Source: a bacterium (GTDB taxonomy: Bacteria; Bdellovibrionota_C; UBA2361; SZUA-149). From it: a stretch of DNA of 35,465 nt. Of the stretch, positions 19,061 to 35,465 are shown piece by piece. The translations under genes and the position numbers were made by a program. The notes below the pieces were generated by a model. It was not told the origin of the DNA. It searched no databases and saw only the letters and a list, made by a program, of their open reading frames with translations. Every line of letters starts with the position of its first letter. Positions within the stretch are counted from its first letter, which is position 1. The stretch lies in NCBI GenBank assembly GCA_030433295.1, contig JAUIMJ010000007.1:1-35465 (forward strand). The letters run 5' to 3'.

Positions 19061-20722
19061 ATGGACAAGAGGCCTTCAAGAGAGTTGTTTGCGGTCAGGC
19101 TTGCACGAAGGAGCCCGTTACTTCTCGCCCTCCTCCTTGTGTTCTCCCCTGCCAGCGCCACCCCACATTACCAGAGCTACGACGGCAGCGGTAACAACGA
19201 GGTGAACCCCGACTGGGGAGCCGCCCATACTGCTCTTATTCGCCTTACCGGCGTTGCTTACGACGATGGTATCTGGCAGGCGGCAGGCGGAGATCTGCCA
19301 AGTGCCCGCATGGTGAGCAATACCGTCGCTGCTCAGTCCTCTCTGCTCAACAACCGCTTCGGCGCCAGCAGCATGCTTTGGCAATGGGGTCAGTTTATCG
19401 ACCACGATATCACCCTCACGGAAACTGACGGCAGTGAGTCCATGGCGATATCAGTTCCCATGGGTGACCCATATTTTGATCCCCGCTGGACCGGTCAGTC
19501 GGAAATCGGCTTCACGCGCTCTGAATATATGCACGGGTCGGGCACCGACGTGGATAATCCGAGGGAGCACCCTAATCAGATAACCGCCTTTATTGACGGC
19601 TCCATGGTGTATGGCTCAGACGAAGCCACCGCACTGGCGCTAAGAAGCGGCGAAGGCGGCAGGCTGAATGTTTCAGCCGGTAATCTTCTGCCGAGAGACG
19701 CCGACGGCAGTTTCCTCGCCGGTGATATTCGAGCCAATGAACAGGTCGGCCTCGCCTCCATGCACACCCTTTTCATGCGTGAGCACAATAGACAGGCTGA
19801 CATCCTGGCACAGGCCAACCCGGAGTGGGATGACGAAACCATCTTTCAGCACGCCCGAAGAAACGTCATAGGCCAGATTCAGGCAATTACCTACAATGAG
19901 TTTCTCCCGGCGCTTCTGGGCTCAAATGCTCCCGGTGCCTACGAGGGCTACGACCCCACGGTCAATCCGAGCATATCAACCGAGTTTTCAACCGCAGCCT
20001 TTCGGGTAGGACACACCATGCTGCCATCCCAACTGTTGCGCCTCGACGATAACTGGCAGGAAACTGCAGACGGGCACCTTGACCTGCGAGACGCCTTCTT
20101 TCAACCTCATTTGATTTCGGAACAGGATGACGTAGACGCCATTCTGCGCGGACTCATGTTTCAAAGCGCTCAGGACATTGACCCGATGATCATCGACGAC
20201 GTGAGAAACTTCCTCTTTGGCCCTCCTGGCGCCGGAGGATTCGATCTTGCCGCGCTGAATCTGCAACGAGGTCGCGACCACGGTCTCATGGCTTACAATG
20301 ACAGCAGAGAGTTACTCGGGCTTGAGCGAATTGCAGACTTTGATGATCCAATATTTCAGGACGGCTTCGGCGATAAACTCCGCGAAGTGTACGGCTCTAT
20401 CGATGATGTAGAACTCTGGATTGGCGGACTTTCCGAGCGTGCCTTCAGAGATGGAATGCTCGGGGAGCTTTTTAGTCATATCGTATCCGAGCAGTTCAGC
20501 AGGCTGCGCGATGGCGATCGCTATTGGTATCTCAACAACCTTGTCGCCGGGGAAATCATGGCCTTCGACAACATCCGTCTGGCAGATATCATTCGTTGGA
20601 ACACCAATATTTCCATGGTGCCGGATAATGTCTTCCTCGCTCAGGTTCCTGAGCCGGGAACGATGCTTTTGTTTGGAATCGGCGCGGCTGCCGGGATTCG
20701 GCTGAGAAAACGCCGCGTCTAA
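19061..20722 (+). CDS. Animal-type heme peroxidase with signal peptide and C-terminal PEP-CTERM sorting signal
   Basis: LWQWGQFIDHDITLTE (distal His region), AAFRVGHTMLPSQLLRL (proximal His region), LNLQRGRDHGLMAYNDSRELLGL; C-terminus VPEPGTMLLFGIGAAAGIRLRKRRV. Confidence 0.94.
   Translation: MDKRPSRELFAVRLARRSPLLLALLLVFSPASATPHYQSYDGSGNNEVNPDWGAAHTALIRLTGVAYDDGIWQAAGGDLPSARMVSNTVAAQSSLLNNRFGASSMLWQWGQFIDHDITLTETDGSESMAISVPMGDPYFDPRWTGQSEIGFTRSEYMHGSGTDVDNPREHPNQITAFIDGSMVYGSDEATALALRSGEGGRLNVSAGNLLPRDADGSFLAGDIRANEQVGLASMHTLFMREHNRQADILAQANPEWDDETIFQHARRNVIGQIQAITYNEFLPALLGSNAPGAYEGYDPTVNPSISTEFSTAAFRVGHTMLPSQLLRLDDNWQETADGHLDLRDAFFQPHLISEQDDVDAILRGLMFQSAQDIDPMIIDDVRNFLFGPPGAGGFDLAALNLQRGRDHGLMAYNDSRELLGLERIADFDDPIFQDGFGDKLREVYGSIDDVELWIGGLSERAFRDGMLGELFSHIVSEQFSRLRDGDRYWYLNNLVAGEIMAFDNIRLADIIRWNTNISMVPDNVFLAQVPEPGTMLLFGIGAAAGIRLRKRRV
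20645..20719 (+). other. PEP-CTERM protein-sorting motif (exosortase substrate tail)
   Basis: VPEPG + hydrophobic helix MLLFGIGAAAGI + basic RLRKRR at the extreme C-terminus. Confidence 0.9.
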
Positions 20723-24456: not shown

Positions 24457-27273
24457 CTATTCAATAAATAACTCTGGCAACACTCTTTGCGTTCCCGCGT
24501 ATTGCAGTGAGAAGGCAATGGGCCGCACTGAGAACTCGTCTAAAGGGCCTCCAATAGATTGCAAGTATCGCTCTATCATCAAAATATCGTTCCTAATGCC
24601 ACGGTCCCGCTCGAAGCCCGGAACCGTCTCCTGAAATGAGCGAAGAAGCGCGCGTTGCTCTGTGAGTATGCTTCGCGCCTGGTCGAGCTTACTGCTGATC
24701 ACTTTCTGCGCTGCGTACTTAAGTTTCTCTGATAAGGAATAGGCCAGAAGATTTTTCAGAACATTCTGCTCAAGGGGCCCTAGAGCAGCCTCGCTCCGAG
24801 TAAGGCTGAGATTGGCACGAGCAACACCATTTTTCATAAACACCAGATCCTTGTAGCGAACCTGCACATCAGAAATCGCGCCCGGACCCGGGGCTACGAC
24901 ATCGAGTAGCACCACGTGGGCATCCCCTGCGTAAAACGCCGGTATGACAATTTGTATCCCCTCTTCGTCTTCCCCTCGGTCGGCGGCAATACCCAGGTTT
25001 TTCGAAATACGCTGATCAATGCTCTTCTCGGCCTGACGAACTCGTTCTGCACTCGGAGCGTCTAATCGCTTAGAACCCAGGACGTCTATCAGCTGCACGC
25101 CGGGAGCCAGTCGTATACGCAGGCGCACCGCCCGGGCAACGACCTGACTGACCGCATTGAGTTCTTTTACGATAATTGACTTAGCATCGTTCGCAGCATT
25201 GAGGATACGTCGACGCCCCTGCCCTTTCAGGGCAAGGTGTTCTAAACCGCCGGGGTGAACCTCGTCCCCGATGCCAACAACACTGGTGGTAATACCTTCA
25301 AGCGCTGCAGCATGAGCCTGATCCCCTAAAGTACCGAGCTGCTCGAGACTACTTGCGGTCACAAGCAGGATGAGACTGCTGCCCAGGGGAGCAGTCGGGT
25401 CGTCACTGCGACTCACCTCTTTTTGCGCCGCCGCCATAGCTTCGCTGAGGTCCCATCCGCCCTTGGCTTCGATGGGAGCAGAAGCCAGGTTCTTAAAGGC
25501 TACGCTTAAATGTCCGTGCCCAAATGTATCCGCCGGGATAAGGGTCCCGCCCTCTCTGCCTGCAATGGTAAGACTGAATCGGTCACCTATATCTTTCTGC
25601 TTATTAAGAGCAAATAGCATCGAACTCATGTCCTCGAGCACTTCTTTTGACGGAAGTTTGCGAAGATCGAGGACCACTGCGACGTTCATTGCAGGTCGCT
25701 GACCACTGCGGCGCTCTGAAGCTTTAAGACCTACCTGCACTATCATTCGCTGCTTTTCCTGCGCGCCGGTATGATTCGAGTGCAGGTATACCGCAAGTGC
25801 CGAGTTCCTCGGGGCATCAAAGGGCTGGTACGTCTGATGTGCAAGATCGTGTGCGTACCGCGTTGGATCCGGGAGACGAAGACTTGTAGCCGGGTATTCC
25901 TTCAAAGCAGCTTCCAGGTGGCGCACTGAAGTCGATCCCGGTATATAGGTGTTTGACCAGTAGCCGCTCGCTTCCTTGAAGCGAAGACCATCAAGCTGTT
26001 CGAAACGCTTCAGGAACTCTGTTGCCGCCTGGCCACGGGTCACATCACTCAGGGGCTCGGGGGCTGCGGGCGAAAGCTGCCGCCGAGCCGGATAAGAATT
26101 TTGCCGGATGTCAGACTTTTTTCCGGTGATGCGTTCCGGTTTTCTTTCGGAGAGAGATTCTTTGTTCGCACGTGATTTATCGGTACGCTTAGCCGTTTCG
26201 CGAGCAAAGGCTTCACGTCCGCCGAATTGACTAACACTATCACTCGATGAACTCTGCATAGAACTAGCGGAGCCAGCGTAGGCTAAATTGTACTTCTCTG
26301 TGACTATCATCTGGGAACTTGATAGCGCGATCGTCGCCTGTAGCTTTGACCTCTCATCAATTTCTTCAAACTTTTTGTATTCCAGATCCTGCGGAGATTC
26401 GCCCCTTCCGTCATTGCGGTAGCCACCGGTGACGCCGCTCAGTACAGGGCTTTCCGATGCAGAGTCGACTTCAGCAAGGAGTTCCTCCTTCTGCTTCTTA
26501 GCAGGTGCCTGCTTTGCATACCTGCGATCTGAGCCCGCGGAGGAAAAGGACCCGCCCCACGGAGCCCCAGGCCCCATGCGTTTCGCCTCTTCGAGTGCAC
26601 GCCACCTTTTCGATCCCTGTATATCTGCTTTAGAGCGGTCCGCCGCCGAGTCCACTTCATCATCGGAGAATACTTCTTCCGCATCATAATCTGTCGGAGC
26701 CTGCGGTAATGCATTGCCCTCGGCCGCAGGTGCCTGATTCTCACGGCGCGAGCCAACGTTCGGCTCGCCGGAATCAGCAATTACACGCTGTAATTCGTTG
26801 TATATTTCGGCACGTTCGTTCTTAGCAGTCTCGATGTCGTTCTTGAATGAAACAATCAGATCGCCGTACGCGTCACGTGCACCAGTTCCTTGCTCACTCG
26901 CTGCCTGCTTCCCAAGATGATTACCAACATTTGCCAATGGCCTAAGCTTTCTCGCGAGCATGTGCGACTGGTGAGAATTCATGGAGTGCGTAAGCACCAG
27001 CAGCAGGGAGCAGGCCGCCACGGCAATTGAGGCGTAGCGTGGCCGACGCAGTAGTGCTGAAGCGGAGCACACTGTTGCCCAGACAGAGGCCAGCAATGCA
27101 TTTCGAATCTCTGCAAACCGCTTTTTCCTGGATGACTCAAACGGGACTTCAATCGGCGTAGCCTCAACCTTCTCAAGAAGCTCCGAGACGACCTCATCAG
27201 AGGCATCATGCAGGGGAAGCTCCCGAAGCAGATTTTCTACCAGATCCTCTCTGTTTTTGATTTCCTTATCCAT
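24457..27273 (-). CDS. Membrane-anchored YfbK-like VWA-domain protein with cytoplasmic N-terminus (putative anti-sigma-like)
   Basis: MDKEIKNREDLVENLLRELPLHD... cytoplasmic segment, TM YASIAVAACSLLLVL, YfbK-like N-domain (NSALAVYLHSN...RMIVQVGLKASE...MNVAVVLD), C-terminal DUF3520-like region. ATG overlaps the sigma factor stop (ATGGATAA). Confidence 0.75.
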   Translation of the reverse strand: MDKEIKNREDLVENLLRELPLHDASDEVVSELLEKVEATPIEVPFESSRKKRFAEIRNALLASVWATVCSASALLRRPRYASIAVAACSLLLVLTHSMNSHQSHMLARKLRPLANVGNHLGKQAASEQGTGARDAYGDLIVSFKNDIETAKNERAEIYNELQRVIADSGEPNVGSRRENQAPAAEGNALPQAPTDYDAEEVFSDDEVDSAADRSKADIQGSKRWRALEEAKRMGPGAPWGGSFSSAGSDRRYAKQAPAKKQKEELLAEVDSASESPVLSGVTGGYRNDGRGESPQDLEYKKFEEIDERSKLQATIALSSSQMIVTEKYNLAYAGSASSMQSSSSDSVSQFGGREAFARETAKRTDKSRANKESLSERKPERITGKKSDIRQNSYPARRQLSPAAPEPLSDVTRGQAATEFLKRFEQLDGLRFKEASGYWSNTYIPGSTSVRHLEAALKEYPATSLRLPDPTRYAHDLAHQTYQPFDAPRNSALAVYLHSNHTGAQEKQRMIVQVGLKASERRSGQRPAMNVAVVLDLRKLPSKEVLEDMSSMLFALNKQKDIGDRFSLTIAGREGGTLIPADTFGHGHLSVAFKNLASAPIEAKGGWDLSEAMAAAQKEVSRSDDPTAPLGSSLILLVTASSLEQLGTLGDQAHAAALEGITTSVVGIGDEVHPGGLEHLALKGQGRRRILNAANDAKSIIVKELNAVSQVVARAVRLRIRLAPGVQLIDVLGSKRLDAPSAERVRQAEKSIDQRISKNLGIAADRGEDEEGIQIVIPAFYAGDAHVVLLDVVAPGPGAISDVQVRYKDLVFMKNGVARANLSLTRSEAALGPLEQNVLKNLLAYSLSEKLKYAAQKVISSKLDQARSILTEQRALLRSFQETVPGFERDRGIRNDILMIERYLQSIGGPLDEFSVRPIAFSLQYAGTQRVLPELFIE

Positions 27274-27880
27274 GATAGCTGACCTCCGCGGAAGAATCCC
27301 GAAGCTCAAGCGCAGCAGCAAGTGTCGCCTTGGCACGCCGAAGGCGCGTTTTAAGGGTGTTGAGGGGTATCTCTAATGCCTCGGCTGCATCGGATTGTTT
27401 GAGATCGTCAAAACAGCAGAGCACCAGGACTTCCCGCTGCTCCAGAGGAAGTTCTCGTATCTGCGCTTCAAGCCAGCGCTGTGTCTCCCGTGCTTCGCTT
27501 ACGTCATGCGCAGAATAATCGTCCGACTCGAATTCCTGTAGTTCCTGATTCCTCGAATCCTTACGCGCGGCGCTTCTGAAATAGCTTCGCGCTGCATTGG
27601 CCACGATGGTAAACAGCCAGGGCTCAAGGCTTCGGTCTTCGTTGAATGAAAAAGCGTTACTGTGCACTTTTAGAAAAATCTCCTGAAACATATCGTCTCT
27701 CGTTGATGCGGGAACGCCACAGCGCAGCAGATAGGAGTAGACCTGCCTTCGGTACTTCTGTACCAGGCAGGAAAAAGCACGAGGGTCCCCATCGCGGTGG
27801 CTAAGCAGCAAGGCTCGCCCATCATCTTCCAGCACTTCGCTCATCGAGGTCTCAATACACTCCTGAAGTTCCACATACAT
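27266..27880 (-). CDS. ECF-type RNA polymerase sigma factor
   Basis: RAFSCLVQKYRRQVYSYLLRCGVPASTRDDMFQEIFLKV (sigma region 2); LPLEQREVLVLCCFDDLKQSDAAEALEIPLNTLKTRLRRAKATL (region 4). Confidence 0.92.
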   Translation of the reverse strand: MYVELQECIETSMSEVLEDDGRALLLSHRDGDPRAFSCLVQKYRRQVYSYLLRCGVPASTRDDMFQEIFLKVHSNAFSFNEDRSLEPWLFTIVANAARSYFRSAARKDSRNQELQEFESDDYSAHDVSEARETQRWLEAQIRELPLEQREVLVLCCFDDLKQSDAAEALEIPLNTLKTRLRRAKATLAAALELRDSSAEVSYHG

Positions 27881-28451: not shown

Positions 28452-29708
28452 ATGAAGAAGCGAATTCTTTTTATCGGGGAGGGAGTGACCCTTGCCCATG
28501 TTGTTCGACCGCTCACTCTTGCACGTACGCTCGATTCAAGGCGTTACGAAGTACACTTCGCATGCCCCGCCACATACCGCGACTTGATCGATGAAGCATT
28601 TCGCTTTCATGAACTGAGTTCTACATCCCCCGCTGAATTCGACAACATACTGCGTCGCGGTAAAGAGCTTTTCCCCGAAGAGCGACTCAACACATACGTT
28701 CTGGACGACATGGAGTTGCTGTCACGAGTTGAACCTGATGTTGTCGTGGGGGATTTGCGACTGTCACTGGCGGTCAGTGCACCATGCATGCACATTCCTT
28801 ACGTGAGCATATCAAGCGGCTGCTGGAGCCCTTCGGTTTGCGACACGAGCATCCCACTCCCCACGGCATTCCCCTTTTCCTTAGTGTCGCGTTGCTGTAC
28901 ACCCGGTAGTTCTCTTTTTGAAGTGGCAGAGGCGTGTTTTCAGCGTGTGGTGCCGAAACTACTGTCGAAACAGGCTCGTGGCCTGAATGCCGTCCGAGAA
29001 AAGTACGGTCTGCCTGCCTTCGAGAGCTATCTGGAGGGCTTCACGTTTTCAGATTTTACTCTCTATGCGGACACTCCCCGTGTCGCACCGACCGCGCAAC
29101 TACCAGGTAATCATCGCTACATCGGTCCCTTATTATGGAGTCCTGATGTCACTATGCCTGCGTGGTGGCGAACACTGCCTGAAGATGAGCCCTTAGTCTT
29201 TCTTAATATGGGTTCCTCAGGGGATCGTACCGCTTTTGAATCCGTCCTTCAGGCTCTCGGGGACATAGATGCTACCCTGGTAATCGCTACCGCAGGTCGC
29301 AGAAACATCGCCAATGTTCCGGAGGCTTCTTTTGTCGAGGATTACCTTCCTGGCAAACTGCTTGCTGAGCGTGCAGATCTCGTGATCACCAATGGCGGAA
29401 GTCCCTCAAGCTATCAGGCGCTCAGTAAAGGGAAACCCGTCATCGGAGTCGCATCGAACATGGACCAGGTCTTGACGATGCGCAATATCGAGCGATGTGG
29501 AGCAGGGATTTTGCTTCGCACTGACTCGATAACAAGCGACCGAGTCACCGCGGCCGTGTCATCCTTACTATCCAAAGATTCATTTACCGAATCCGCCAGA
29601 GCGGTAGCCGAGGAATTCAAACGCTACGATGCCCATGAAATTTTTGAAAACGTTCTTGATAAACTCTCCGCTACCGATGCGCTGGTGCGGGATGGGTCAA
29701 CCCTATAG
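28452..29708 (+). CDS. GT1/UGT-like (MGT-type) glycosyltransferase
   Basis: MKKRILFIGEGVTLAHVVRPLTLARTL...YEVHFACP; C-terminal FLNMGSSGDR...VEDYLPGKLLAERADLVITNGGSPSSYQALSKGKPVIGVASNMDQVLTM. Confidence 0.85.
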   Translation: MKKRILFIGEGVTLAHVVRPLTLARTLDSRRYEVHFACPATYRDLIDEAFRFHELSSTSPAEFDNILRRGKELFPEERLNTYVLDDMELLSRVEPDVVVGDLRLSLAVSAPCMHIPYVSISSGCWSPSVCDTSIPLPTAFPFSLVSRCCTPGSSLFEVAEACFQRVVPKLLSKQARGLNAVREKYGLPAFESYLEGFTFSDFTLYADTPRVAPTAQLPGNHRYIGPLLWSPDVTMPAWWRTLPEDEPLVFLNMGSSGDRTAFESVLQALGDIDATLVIATAGRRNIANVPEASFVEDYLPGKLLAERADLVITNGGSPSSYQALSKGKPVIGVASNMDQVLTMRNIERCGAGILLRTDSITSDRVTAAVSSLLSKDSFTESARAVAEEFKRYDAHEIFENVLDKLSATDALVRDGSTL

Positions 29709-29722
29709 TTAAGAGGAATGAT

Positions 29723-30616
29723 ATGCCTGAGAATACCGTATGTAACCTTTGCGATTCCCCCGAAACATATTCAAAGAGCTCGGAACAGCGACAGGTCGCA
29801 TGTCATGTGAGGAAGTTTCAGAACGATAACTTTACGGTTTGGCGGTGTGGAGGCTGTCAGTCCCTACACTCAAAAGAAGTTGTAGATTTGGATTCTTATT
29901 ATGCTGATTATCCCCTCAAGAAACACACCTTGGATTTTCACGCTAAAATAGGATACCGAAATCGAATCAAGTTGCTGACCAGGTGTGGTTTGTCGAAAGA
30001 CACTAAAATTTTAGATTATGGATGTGGAAACGGATTGTTCGTTACGTTTCTGCAGTCAAACGGATACGCATTCGCAAATGGCTTTGACCCTTATATTCCT
30101 GAATACGCCGGAACACCTTTAGAGCCAGGATCCTTTGATATTGTTACCTCATACGATGTCATAGAACATGTCGACAACCCAAAGAGTTATCTGGAGACCC
30201 TCATCTCCCTGGTTAAGCCCGGTGGCTTGTTGGTGCTGGGCACTCCTAACGCGGAAGAGATAGATCTCTTCGATCCGGATGGTCCACCTGTGGAACTCTC
30301 ACAACCCTATCACCGGCATATTCTCTCAGCGAGGACCTTGTTTAAATTAGCAGAAGACAAGGCATTGGAAGTGGTGGACGTCTATCGTAGATTTTACTTC
30401 GATAGTCTGCTGCCTTTAGTTAATACTCGCTGCATGTGGACATACATTCGTTCTACAGGTGGGATGATAGATGCTGCGGTTGAGCCAATTCAATGGGGGG
30501 TATTTCTAAAGTCTCCTCGCTTACTGCTCTATGCATTCCTCGGATATTTCTATCCGCCAAAGGGAAATATTCTGGTGACCTTCAGGGTTGGGCGTTCGCA
30601 AGCAGTGCCAGAGTAG
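29723..30616 (+). CDS. Class I SAM methyltransferase with N-terminal zinc-ribbon-like motif
   Basis: CNLCDSPE...WRCGGCQSLHS; KILDYGCGNGLFVTFLQSNGYAFANGFDPY...FDIVTSYDVIEHVDNPKSYLETLISLVKPGGLLVLGTPN. Confidence 0.87.
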   Translation: MPENTVCNLCDSPETYSKSSEQRQVACHVRKFQNDNFTVWRCGGCQSLHSKEVVDLDSYYADYPLKKHTLDFHAKIGYRNRIKLLTRCGLSKDTKILDYGCGNGLFVTFLQSNGYAFANGFDPYIPEYAGTPLEPGSFDIVTSYDVIEHVDNPKSYLETLISLVKPGGLLVLGTPNAEEIDLFDPDGPPVELSQPYHRHILSARTLFKLAEDKALEVVDVYRRFYFDSLLPLVNTRCMWTYIRSTGGMIDAAVEPIQWGVFLKSPRLLLYAFLGYFYPPKGNILVTFRVGRSQAVPE

Positions 30617-30671: not shown

Positions 30672-32660
30672 TCAGGCACTCAGCGAGGTGGTACGCCCTT
30701 TGGGACAATCCCGGACCACTTGATCCAAGGTCTCGATGAGAGTTGCGACAGGAACGGGTTTGGCGATGTAGGCGTCCATTCCCGCGCGCAGGCAACGCTC
30801 CTTATCTCCCTGCAAAGCAAATGCGGTAAGCGCGACAATTGGCGTGTGCCGCTCGAGTATCTTGTCTTGCTCACGGATTGCTTTCGTCGCCTCAAATCCA
30901 TTCATGATTGGCATTTGGCAATCCATAAAAACAGCGTCAAAATCCTGCGCATTAGTTGCGGCGACCGCCTCTCTCCCGTTTGTGGCCGTTGATATTTTGT
31001 GACCTTCTTTTCGGAGAATCCTGCAAATAAGTTCGAGGCTAACCGAATGGTCGTCAACGACAAGCACGTCGAGCTGATAGAGGTTTTTCGGTGTAGATAC
31101 CTGCTCTTTTAATCCAACTCTCTCGGCTTTTGGCACTGAGCTAAAATACTGCAGCATGCCAGACTCGAGTACCATCACGTCGAGCGTAAAGGAGAAGCAA
31201 CTCCCATTGCCGACTTCCGATTCGACCCAAATCGTGCCACCCATAAGTTTTGCGAGCTGCGCTGAAATGGACAGGCCAAGACCTGTCCCGCCGTGTTCTC
31301 GAGTGAGCGAGGAATCTGCCTGTTTAAAGGCTTCGAATATCAAATCCTGTTTTTCAGCAGGAATTCCTATGCCGTTATCCCGGACGGAGAACTGCAGCGT
31401 TGCTTCATCACCATTAATCTTTCTCGTAGAAACATGGATGTGAACACTGCCATTTTTCTGTGTGAACTTGATAGCATTACTCGCAAGATTGATAAGAATC
31501 TGACCCAGTCTGTCAGAGTCAGCTACGAGAGGATCGGGAACATCATCATCCACGGTAAGGGTAAAACGCACGCTCTTATGTTGTGCGGTAACATCGAGCA
31601 TCTTATATATCGTTGCCAAAAACTGGCGGAGATTGAAACTTGTTGAGTTTAGCTCAAGCTTTCCGGCCTCAATCTTAGCAAAATCGAGAATGTCATTGAT
31701 GATTCTTAGAAGTGAGTGTCCACTCGACTTGGCCATCATCAGACATTCTCGTTGGTCTTCAGTCAGCTCAGTGTCCAGAACGAGATCGGTCATACCAAGA
31801 ACTCCATTCATAGGCGTTCGTATCTCGTGGCTCATGTTGGCAAGAAACAAGGACTTAGCCTGATGAGCGGCTTCTGCGCGTTCTTTCTCTGTGAGAAGCT
31901 GCGCATCTCGATCGGCTATCTGAGCCAGCATTTCGTTAAATCCACTGACAAGTCTGCCAATTTCATCGTCGCTGCGACGTTCCACCTGGAGTGAGTAGTC
32001 GCCTTCTGCGGTTACCGTATCCATTGTCTCAGCCAGATCCAGAATCGGTTCGGAGATGGGTTTGAGCAACCGCTTCGAAAGCAGGAATGCAAACATAAGT
32101 GAAAGGAGAAAGACTAATGTGGTTGAAGCCGTAAAGACCATTAACGGAACATAAAGCGAACTGAGATCCGCTACGATGTAGATCATCCCAACGGTCTCAT
32201 TCTCAAGAGATACGGTGTCGAGGTGATAGAGTAACCCGTCCGCAAACGTTGCGCCGAGGGCAAGGGTCTTGTGTTTCGAGAGCACCCTCCCCCACTTCGA
32301 CTCATTTTTTGTATGCCCTGGTGCTGAGAAAGCTGCGAGCTGAGTTTGGTCCGGTAAAAACAGCGCAGCATAGGTAATTCTTTGATCAGCACCAGCGGAT
32401 TCCAACAAGCGGGAGGCTGACTGTTCGTCAGAGAAAGCCAGTGCGGCCCGACTGTTCAGGCCTATTGAGGTAGCAAGTGTTTCAACTTCTTTGCTGAAGG
32501 TTTGCCGCAGCGATAAATACTGGAACGGAAGAAGAGCGGCGAAGGCAATAATGAGGGCCGCAAGACTGGAGAGGGCGTAGACGCGAATCAGTTTCGCTTT
32601 TAAAGATGAGACACGAAAAAGCGATGAAAACACGATACAGAATTCCCCTTGTCGTCTCAC
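30672..32660 (-). CDS. Hybrid sensor histidine kinase/response regulator (CHASE8-like sensor, HAMP, HisKA, HATPase, REC)
   Basis: Two TM helices around a periplasmic domain ([39 protein letters not shown]), [61 protein letters not shown]...[13 protein letters not shown]...AKPV. Confidence 0.93.
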
Positions 32661-32687: not shown

Positions 32688-34412
32688 TTACCCTAGATTA
32701 GCGTGTTTTTCAATTGCGTCAACTGCTTTTGTCGGCCCAGATCTATCCATGCATTGCTTGCTCGCCTGAAGGAAGGCCTGGCGATTGATTGGTTTACGGA
32801 GGACTGTGAGGAGTCTGTTTTTTACGTATCGCGAATCAGCGGTATCCGTATCATGAGACACGATTCCGATGACCGGGGCTTCACACTGTTTGAGGAACGC
32901 CTGGTTAAACGAGCAGGGTGTCTGTCCTTCGATGATCACAAACAAATGCTGATCCAGGCTGGAATTATGCGCGAATACACTCGAGGGCCTGTGATCGAGG
33001 CCAATATTCAGAGTATCAAGCCAACGGGACAGTAAAATCATCTCGATTTCGGTTCCGCCAACAAGCAGCGCTCGTTGAAAGTGATGTGAGGAATGTAGGC
33101 TCTTATTTTGTAGATTGGGGACAAAAGTCGCCGCGCGAACGTCCCTGTCACCACTGGGCATACGGAGTTCTACCGATGTAGCGCCCCGGTGATGTCTGAA
33201 CGAGACAGAATCGCCGAGGAGTTCTATGAGATTTGCCCTGTGACTGAAGTCTGCTTTCTCGACAAACATGTCACATGGTTTTGGGAGCTTCTCCATTCGT
33301 GTTCTCGCGATTGACGGCCGTATCCTTCGAAAATTTGAAAAGAGAATTTCATGTTGGGATTCTGAAGTAGGCTTGTTCGATTGTCGGATAACCTCGAGCA
33401 CGACCTTTGCTCCAGGAAGAGAGCTGTGCTTTGTCGAGACGTTAATACAAAGGTGTTCGCCGGGCTCAGAGCTGTAGAGTAGCTCAAGCAGAATACTATA
33501 GAAGACTTCAATAAATCGTTCGTAGTCACCAAGCAGACAAGGAAGCTCGTCCTCTGCAGGGACACTTATTTGAATCCCTCGGTTCTGCGCGATGCTTTCA
33601 CACACTTCGATAAGAGGCCAAACACATGTCTTTGCATCAAAGCGTTCGATTTTGAGGGTGTCTCGCGAAAGATATTCCAGCTTTGCCTTAAGAATAGCCC
33701 TTTCTATGCATCGAGCGGCCTCAGGATAGTTCACTACGAGCTGTTGAATGTAGTTGGGACTCGCCTTCGTGATAGTCTTTGGCTCGGTCATCAGGAGCGC
33801 GACTACCTCGGAGGAAGACAAGAGATATGGCGCGGGAAATGTTTCCGCGGGCGCCAGCTCTTTTCTAAAGGCCTTCGAACGCTTTGAAGTATTCTTGAGA
33901 TCGTCTTGGTTGTTAACATCAAGGTGCAGCAGGACCCCGGGACTTCCCGCCACCCTATTACACGGTTTCATCGCCCCACGCGGCTTGAAACGCAGACTGC
34001 GTTTCCAGAACGCAGTATGTTTTGGGTGCACGACGGCAAGGACATCGGACACATCGTAGTGTTTCCACCAAAAGAAGAGTCGTCGGACAAACTCGCTTGT
34101 TTCTCTCTTACTTCGACCATCTTTGAAAGCAAATTTAGTCCCTTCGGATGCTCTTCGCGATGGATCTCGAGTTAGTGTGCGGATCTCCTCGGGGTACAAC
34201 TCCGTTGAGGGCACATCAATATTCTCTGCGATTACCGTGGTTACGGTACCAACAATCGCACCTCCACATGAGGCAACAAAGTTAACAGTAGAAGGGAGTA
34301 AATCGACCGCCGAAAACAGCAGGGCACTTGGGTTTACCTGGGTAAATCCCTTGGAGAGATACTGTTCGTAGGTCAGTCTAAATGCTTCCAACAACTCTCT
34401 AAACGACTGCAC
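32688..34412 (-). CDS. Predicted fusion: FeeM/exosortase-associated N-acyltransferase-like domain + degenerate HATPase + pseudo-receiver
   Basis: N-terminal EAFRLTYEQYLSKGF...LLPSTVNFVASCGGAIVGTVTTVIAENIDVPSTELYPEEIRTLTRD...FWWKHYDVSDVLAVVHPKHTAFWKRSLRFKPRG...GVLLHLDV resembles N-acyl amino acid synthase FeeM; middle LGDYERFIEVFYSILLELLYSS...ANLIELLGDSVSFRHHRGATSVELRMP aligns by eye with a HATPase lacking its motifs; C-terminal RALLVGGTEIEM...LFVIIEGQTPCS...VLRKPI aligns by eye with REC. GTG start as given in the track; true start uncertain. Confidence 0.68.
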   Translation of the reverse strand: MQSFRELLEAFRLTYEQYLSKGFTQVNPSALLFSAVDLLPSTVNFVASCGGAIVGTVTTVIAENIDVPSTELYPEEIRTLTRDPSRRASEGTKFAFKDGRSKRETSEFVRRLFFWWKHYDVSDVLAVVHPKHTAFWKRSLRFKPRGAMKPCNRVAGSPGVLLHLDVNNQDDLKNTSKRSKAFRKELAPAETFPAPYLLSSSEVVALLMTEPKTITKASPNYIQQLVVNYPEAARCIERAILKAKLEYLSRDTLKIERFDAKTCVWPLIEVCESIAQNRGIQISVPAEDELPCLLGDYERFIEVFYSILLELLYSSEPGEHLCINVSTKHSSLPGAKVVLEVIRQSNKPTSESQHEILFSNFRRIRPSIARTRMEKLPKPCDMFVEKADFSHRANLIELLGDSVSFRHHRGATSVELRMPSGDRDVRAATFVPNLQNKSLHSSHHFQRALLVGGTEIEMILLSRWLDTLNIGLDHRPSSVFAHNSSLDQHLFVIIEGQTPCSFNQAFLKQCEAPVIGIVSHDTDTADSRYVKNRLLTVLRKPINRQAFLQASKQCMDRSGPTKAVDAIEKHANLG

Positions 34413-34587
34413 TGGGCGATACTGAGATTCTGGCCCAACTTCGTTTGAAACCTCTAATGCTAGGCCACGTTCTATCGTCTATTCCTCCTGAGCTGAGGGC
34501 AATACACGGGATACTCTTACATGCGGCACAGAAATTGGTTTCAAAAACGACAACACCGGTGGCATCGCCGAGCAAAAAAATCCGCAG

Positions 34588-34619: not shown

Positions 34620-34899
34620 AGTGAAACGATTCCACTAAGTATTGCACATCTAGTCTGACTACTACCCGTATTCGAAGTAGCATTATAGTGAGGCCGTGCA
34701 GAAAAAGATAGCGCGCGCCCAAAATTTCTTGTGTGCCTCGTGTTCTTCACAGCATGGTACCGAGCGATTCTCATCTCCTGTTCCTTGTACGACCACGACG
34801 CAATTCTTGAAGCCTTCCTAAATCAAGGCAAGTTTCAGACCTTGTGTATTTGAAGACGATTTGTGCTACTTTCCTTCCTTTATTTGGGTATGTGGGCCA

Positions 34900-35465
34900 A
34901 TGAGTCAGCAAAATTTGGAATCTGTCAGCTACCAATGTGGCATGAGTTTCGCGGACGCCTTGCGTGCCTGGCGTGAGATACTTGGCGAGAACAGCGTTCA
35001 TACCTCTCCCGAAAAACTACGAGCGTTCAGCGAGAACTGCACGCCAACGTCAACTTCTCCCCTTGCTGTTCTTGAGCCCGGAACGACTGCGGAAGTTCAA
35101 GCGCTTGTTCGTGTCGCCGCCCAATACAAGATCCCTCTTTATTCGATCAGCGCTGGCTTAAATATAGGCTATGGCGGTGGATGTCCGGCTCAGAAAAATA
35201 ATGTCGTTGTCAGTCTAAAAAAATTGAACTCTATAGAACTCGATCCTCTCCTGGGCTACGCGGTACTTGGTCCCGGGGTGACCCAGGAACAATTGGAACA
35301 ATTTCTGGTAGAGCGTGGCGGCGACTATGTGATGGACGCTTCGGGGGCCCCACCCGGCGCGAGCTTTATCGGTAACATACTGGAGCGTGGACATGGCCAC
35401 TCGCGATATAGCTCGAGAGTTGAGCACTGCGCCGGTATGGAGGTGGTGCTGGGAGACGGACAGCT
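34900..35465 (+). CDS. FAD-dependent oxidase/dehydrogenase, VAO/4-cresol dehydrogenase type (3' end truncated by window edge)
   Basis: Hand translation from ATG at 34900: MSQQNLESVSYQCGMSFADALRAWREILGENSVHTSPEKLRAFSENCTPTSTSPLAVLEPGTTAEVQALVRVAAQYKIPLYSISAGLNIGYGGGCPAQKNNVVVSLKKLNSIELDPLLGYAVLGPGVTQEQLEQFL...; open to window end. Not in the ORF track. Confidence 0.88.
   Translation, partial: MSQQNLESVSYQCGMSFADALRAWREILGENSVHTSPEKLRAFSENCTPTSTSPLAVLEPGTTAEVQALVRVAAQYKIPLYSISAGLNIGYGGGCPAQKNNVVVSLKKLNSIELDPLLGYAVLGPGVTQEQLEQFLVERGGDYVMDASGAPPGASFIGNILERGHGHSRYSSRVEHCAGMEVVLGDGQ

Follow-up and report, generated by a model that had tools for sequence, protein, structure and literature searches.

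On the minus strand of the window (the whole stretch of 35,465 nucleotides analysed here) lies a gene whose product joins a FeeM-type N-acyl amino acid synthase to a degenerate kinase ATPase domain and a degenerate receiver domain. This three-part architecture is real and recurrent: it was found in 5 of the 47 genomes of the class, each time beside a hybrid kinase of the CHASE8-HAMP type. The sequence-only reading of the window knew of no described protein of this kind. We searched the literature on FeeM or N-acyl tyrosine together with kinase or receiver domains and found no description of the fusion, which is undescribed as far as the searched literature goes. The fusion gene, its parts and the adjoining kinase gene are located as follows.

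32688-34475, minus strand: fusion gene (open reading frame), FeeM synthase followed by an extension, a degenerate HATPase and a degenerate receiver
33918-34388, minus strand: FeeM N-acyl amino acid synthase domain, residues 30-186 (Pfam PF21926, PDB 2g0b)
33690-33908, minus strand: helical extension after FeeM, residues 190-262 or so, boundaries approximate (helices in both structure models)
33141-33653, minus strand: degenerate HATPase_c, about residues 275-445 (hhalign and site table)
32742-33080, minus strand: degenerate receiver, residues 466-578 or thereabouts (site table, and hhalign with the receiver part of the family)
30672-32660, minus strand: partner CHASE8-HAMP-HisKA-HATPase-REC hybrid kinase, 27 bp downstream of the fusion (Pfam domains)

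Reading frame and domains of the fusion protein

The open reading frame of the fusion gene is uninterrupted on the minus strand; the plus-strand reading of 32688-34412 is riddled with stops. The frame comprises 596 codons without stops and is open up to 34478. The protein has 595 amino acids when counted from the ATA codon at 34475, which is the origin of all residue numbers given here for the window fusion, and 574 when counted from the GTG at 34412. The latter was the start chosen in the sequence-only reading, which probably placed it too far downstream. An AGGAGG motif lies at 34489-34484, 8 nt ahead of the ATA codon, and we placed the start at 34475 on this ground. In the alignment, homologues of the fusion start about nine residues upstream of the equivalent of GTG 34412, which by this comparison is probably too far in and would probably remove the beginning of the FeeM fold. 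Translation probably begins at ATA 34475, unless the base there differs in the living organism. This ATA (34473-34489 together with the AGGAGG) is the sole well-placed start of the fusion gene; it is either a start codon of a rare, non-standard kind or due to a differing base in the assembly. Scans for promoters and terminators gave results at chance level and barely above chance, respectively.

The FeeM domain is complete and scores far above the curated cut-off of Pfam PF21926 (4.9e-31, 108 bits against 27), with the full profile, positions 1-158, covered. A profile built from nine FeeM domains of the class matched a single PDB sequence, that of FeeM itself (2g0b, 3.5e-16). The domain is predicted to make N-acyl amino acids from acyl-ACP. 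The helical extension that follows has no similarity to a DHp domain (0.1% by hhalign).

The window protein alone gave no significant Pfam match for either HATPase or receiver, and its last 300 residues gave a weak PDB match to the kinase ZraS (0.0047). We cut the family into parts for hhalign, namely FeeM, extension, ATPase and receiver for the fusions, and sensor, DHp, HATPase and REC for the partner kinases. The ATPase part of the five fusions matched HATPase alone (97.4%, 9e-12), as did the window part by itself at lower score (72%, 3e-5). The family receiver part matched REC alone (99.8%, 7e-30). Taken by itself, the window receiver is barely detectable (3.9%, E 0.011), so that its identity rests on its relatives. 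Cross-matches among parts were absent and background comparisons stayed below 1%. Two homologues of the same architecture exceed the curated Response_reg cut-off (L005 with 45.6 bits and L007 with 86.9 bits), and in whole-genome searches the C-terminal half of the family profile aligned to contiguous HATPase-REC segments of hybrid kinases, as in G012 (positions 263-570, 2.8e-37). The succession of acyltransferase, HATPase layout and receiver proposed from the sequence thus stands. No DHp or phospho-accepting histidine was detected, the ATPase part and the extension both giving 0.1% against DHp in hhalign and Pfam giving no HisKA.

The catalytic residues were read from the columns of alignment A3, in which the fusions are those of the window, G024 and G027. 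In the window ATPase part the N-box Asn is replaced by Glu331, the DxGxG motif by QSNKP, and the GxGxG motif is absent; these losses had already been noticed in the sequence-only reading. The N-box Asn and the G-boxes are gone in the G024 and G027 fusions too. In the window receiver the acidic pair is replaced by Gly473-Gly474, the phosphorylatable Asp by Glu516 and the Thr by Val, while Lys561 is retained. The G024 receiver similarly has Glu for the Asp, a broken acidic pair and a retained Lys. In G001, the Asp is Ala and the Lys is Arg, as read from the alignment, and the G020 fusion has no receiver. The receiver of G027 is complete, with Glu-Asp, Asp, Ser and Lys (Pfam 1.3e-24). Judged by its residues, the window receiver cannot act as a normal phosphorelay element, because the acidic pair is Gly-Gly and the Asp is Glu; among the fusion receivers, that of G027 alone could be phosphorylated.

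Two AlphaFold models were calculated, a first, biased one that included kinase rows and a second without them. Both are of low confidence (mean pLDDT of 50.6 and 44.1, respectively), and both show a similar order of elements: a FeeM-like alpha/beta region, helices, a HATPase-like sandwich and, last, strands alternating with helices much as in a receiver. In Foldseek searches of the PDB, the model without kinase rows matched FeeM (2g0b, 9e-6) and the catalytic regions of kinases (RetS, 7.6e-6; also HK853 and DivL). The models are not decisive and may be taken as supporting the order of the elements only.

Spread of the fusion and its partner kinase

The fusion occurs in the window genome (G000) and in G001, G020, G024 and G027, which belong to three families; its distribution is patchy within two of these. 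Two fusion loci were recovered with a two-sequence alignment as query for the genome collection. FeeM-only proteins are present in other genomes of the class, and a paralogue exists in the window's own genome. Outside the class, FeeM searches gave no strong match with a kinase-length frame in about 400 genomes, those of two further phyla included. A search with the full fusion profile, in which three candidates per genome were scored, mostly returned ordinary hybrid kinases, so that it is chiefly the FeeM searches that speak for the lack of fusions beyond the class. Long but weak FeeM matches from other phyla (G260, G057, G339, G234 and G239) were considered as possible additional fusions and set aside, being by eye PilZ-acyltransferase or acyltransferase-aminotransferase proteins. 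All genomes are draft assemblies, and those named are metagenome-assembled.

The sequence-only reading had pointed to the downstream kinase as a neighbour worth following, and this proved well founded: in each of the five genomes a CHASE8-HAMP hybrid kinase gene runs in the same direction as the fusion. The kinase gene overlaps the fusion by 4 bp in G024, lies downstream in G027, and lies downstream in G001, where it is cut by the contig end. In G020 the kinase, identified by alignment and by the Pfam match of its receiver, is upstream of the fusion, with an OmpR-type regulator in between; such a regulator is also found upstream of the fusion in G027. These regulators (L052:4688-5404, plus strand; L055:9415-10128, minus strand) carry a VVDNVP motif and accompany the G027 and G020 fusions only, the latter being the receiver-less one.

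A profile of the fusion ATPase part gave its best non-self scores with three of the partner kinases (52, 39 and 35 bits). Other hybrid kinases tested did not exceed 29 bits, although they had been preselected for similarity to the family; the G027 and G020 partner kinases score below the best three. The simplest history that these similarities suggest is a partial duplication of the back half of the partner kinase onto the synthase, followed by decay of the catalytic residues. Mean pairwise identity is 21-23% in the C-terminal half, against 36% in the FeeM domain and about 41% in the same domains of the partner kinases. Nevertheless, the C-terminal half is open over about 305 codons in every lineage that retains it, for which a random stretch of the same composition would have a chance of about 8e-7.

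The gene cluster around the fusion

Besides the kinase, the five fusion genomes have in common a phenol oxidase, a glycosyltransferase, a TonB receptor and a YfiR-like gene. In G001 the set of oxidase, TonB receptor and YfiR-like gene is on a different contig from the fusion. In the window, the cluster includes the following genes.

34861-35465, plus strand: VAO/PCMH-type phenol oxidase, N-terminal part, cut by the contig end (FAD_binding_4, 9e-25)
28452-29708, plus strand: glycosyltransferase of the macrolide/UGT type (Pfam, NCBIfam, PDB)
29723-30616, plus strand: methyltransferase (Pfam; 51% identity, 4e-97, with the G027 homologue)

The remainder of the oxidase opens contig C75 of the same genome (L088:1-1044). 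The two pieces are consecutive parts of the protein with a gap of about four residues between them, and the window contig and C75 are probably neighbours in the genome, split within one oxidase gene (window 35465 and L088:1). On C75, the oxidase remainder is followed by the YfiR-like and TonB receptor genes. A full-length relative of the oxidase matches 8s7r (1.5e-73), p-cresol methylhydroxylase (1.3e-64) and vanillyl-alcohol oxidase (about 1e-55). Enzymes of the VAO/PCMH type oxidise para-substituted phenols, among which an N-acyl tyrosine would count. All full-length oxidases contain a YG and a PYR motif, and each of the two pieces of the split gene contains one of them; their Tyr and Tyr-Arg are what we take to be the phenol-binding residues. 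The oxidase also accompanies a FeeM-only cluster in G033, which ties it to FeeM products generally.

At E below 1e-70, the genomes with the glycosyltransferase are the five with the fusion and no others; the remaining 42 gave one weak match (7e-4). If the two distributions were independent of each other, two identical sets of five among 47 would arise by chance with a probability of about 7e-7, a figure that is weakened by kinship; the co-occurrence also holds within families f1 and f15. Likewise, the five fusion genomes account for the best five TonB receptors in the class. The methyltransferase of the window is shared with the G027 cluster only. In G020, the oxidase is adjoined by a tryptophan-halogenase-like flavoprotein (L055:15166-16851, minus strand; Pfam 7e-18), and the product of that cluster may be halogenated.

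Further away in the window, an animal-type-heme-peroxidase-like protein (19061-20722, plus strand) ends in a C-terminal PEP-CTERM sorting signal, VPEPGTMLLFGIGAAAGIRLRKRR; FeeM synthases have been reported near PEP-CTERM genes (PMC7293339). At 24457-27880, on the minus strand, what by eye is a sigma-factor-like gene overlaps that of a 959-aa protein, likewise by eye membrane-anchored and von Willebrand-type-like, a possible sigma/anti-sigma pair.

Possible role of the captured kinase half

Bacterial small-molecule biosynthesis is usually viewed as transcriptionally controlled. We give even chances to an explanation in which the cluster makes an N-acyl-tyrosine-type product and the captured kinase half gives the synthase a module for docking to the partner kinase and for regulation. 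What the sequences show are the identities of the domains, their missing catalytic residues and the conservation of the cluster. The product class is likely; docking to the partner kinase, regulation of the synthase through the kinase half and the direction of that control are what we infer. FeeM-type enzymes take a long acyl chain from ACP and attach it to an amino acid, in many cases tyrosine (PMC8762209, PMC7293339), and the synthase would join such a chain to an aromatic amino acid. Tyrosine is the putative substrate by analogy with these relatives and from the neighbouring oxidase, whose presumed phenol-binding Tyr and Tyr-Arg motifs suit an N-acyl tyrosine. The oxidase would oxidise the phenolic side chain of the N-acyl amino acid, and the glycosyltransferase, with the methyltransferase in some genomes, would finish the product. 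The CHASE8 kinase, together with the TonB receptor and the YfiR-like periplasmic protein, would sense an envelope or extracellular cue, and the captured half would bind the partner kinase and so couple synthase activity to sensing. We read this half as a docking and regulatory module because it lacks the ATP motifs and a phospho-accepting His, and because four of the five copies offer no usable phosphorylation site.

The sequence-only reading had supposed that synthesis is controlled by, or signals through, a phosphorelay-like scaffold. Docking to the partner kinase is a plausible means of control; a relay through the window fusion is implausible, since the protein has no DHp and its receiver has neither the acidic pair nor the phospho-accepting Asp. 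More tentatively, and with odds that we would place somewhat short of even, the synthase may be gated post-translationally by a captured half that mimics part of its own sensor kinase, which would bring sensing and synthesis together in a single protein complex, possibly within a quorum-sensing-like loop in which the finished product is sensed by the TonB receptor, the YfiR-like protein and the CHASE8 kinase.

The same losses could mean that FeeM was fused to a copy of the neighbouring kinase and that this half is now decaying cargo without function, the synthase alone mattering. In most copies both kinase domains have lost their catalytic residues, G020 has no receiver left, and the low identity of the C-terminal half, well below that of FeeM and of the partner kinase domains, makes a loss of function conceivable. 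Against such decay, the frame has stayed intact in distant lineages, the HATPase fold is still detectable and the G027 receiver is complete, and we regard this explanation as unlikely. That complete receiver, with all canonical residues, would instead favour an enzyme switched, like response regulators with enzymatic outputs, by phosphorylation of its receiver by the partner kinase, of which the window copy would be a derived, phosphate-independent and perhaps Glu-locked form; the substitution of Glu for the Asp in the window and G024 copies, both with the Lys retained, fits this. The site is nevertheless missing or replaced in four of the five copies, the window copy lacks the acidic pair required for Mg, and no Hpt protein was noticed adjoining the hybrid kinases, which leaves this switch rather improbable.

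Degenerate ATPase domains can serve dimerisation or ligand binding. The kinase-like half might accordingly sense the product or another ligand alone, or serve only to dimerise the synthase, in either case making no contact with the partner kinase, and the extension ahead of the ATPase part is helical in both models. The constant co-orientation with one kinase type and the closest similarity to three such kinases make this very improbable. As to an artefact of assembly or annotation, the genomes are drafts or metagenome assemblies and the fusion start codon is unusual, but the same architecture appears in independent assemblies of three families, is mid-contig in three and has no internal stop; we hardly give this any credence. 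Our preferred reading remains that of a docking and regulatory module.

If this is true, control would sit on the enzyme itself, in a conserved synthase that carries a fragment of its sensor kinase, which suggests a direct link between small-molecule synthesis and sensing in a poorly known group of bacteria. The N-acyl dehydrotyrosines are an established class of natural products, and PMC8762209 states that the enzyme behind their oxidation is unknown. The phenol oxidase is a concrete candidate for converting N-acyl tyrosine into N-acyl dehydrotyrosine, and the cluster predicts a glycosylated acyl-amino-acid compound that could be searched for by mass spectrometry.

Several known systems share parts of this arrangement. 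FeeM and the long-chain N-acyl tyrosine synthases (2g0b; the environmental-DNA clusters of Brady and Clardy; the stieleriacine clusters) have the same complete catalytic domain, and N-acyl dehydrotyrosine pathways have a tailoring oxidase and a methyltransferase nearby, as in the window cluster. Those synthases are single-domain proteins among the ones that we found, whereas the window synthase is extended by a kinase ATPase domain and a receiver, and its cluster includes a hybrid kinase. The hybrid kinases with degenerate parts ShkA, RetS and DivL, which were among the Foldseek matches, also have a HATPase fold followed by a receiver, and in them non-catalytic kinase domains have a regulatory part; they keep DHp and sensor domains, both of which are replaced by a biosynthetic enzyme in the window fusion. 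Response regulators with enzymatic outputs, such as PleD and CheB, likewise join a receiver to an enzyme, but the fusion receiver is C-terminal, stands behind a degenerate kinase domain and is mostly not phosphorylatable. The sensing genes beside the fusion resemble the TonB receptor, YfiR-like and CHASE8 kinase sets of NCBIfam (TOL_0244, TOL_0243, HK_near_YfiR_like), which are named there as associated, without a synthase, and whose curated cut-offs are above the scores of the window cluster.

In PRK14852-type fusions, for which NCBIfam has a 989-residue model that includes FeeM, and in acyltransferases linked to PEP-CTERM, a FeeM-like domain lies in a longer protein or near signalling genes; their partner domains are different ones, without the HATPase-receiver half of the window fusion. 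The ThiF-associated kind is represented by a split relative at another place in the window's genome. This second FeeM cluster (L093, contig C346) encodes a FeeM-only synthase together with AMP-ligase-, ThiF- and radical-SAM-like proteins, the names other than FeeM being given by eye. A similar set, plus the oxidase, is found in G033 (L092). On contig C325 of the window's genome (L089), a second VAO-type oxidase adjoins what by eye is an RND-like exporter.
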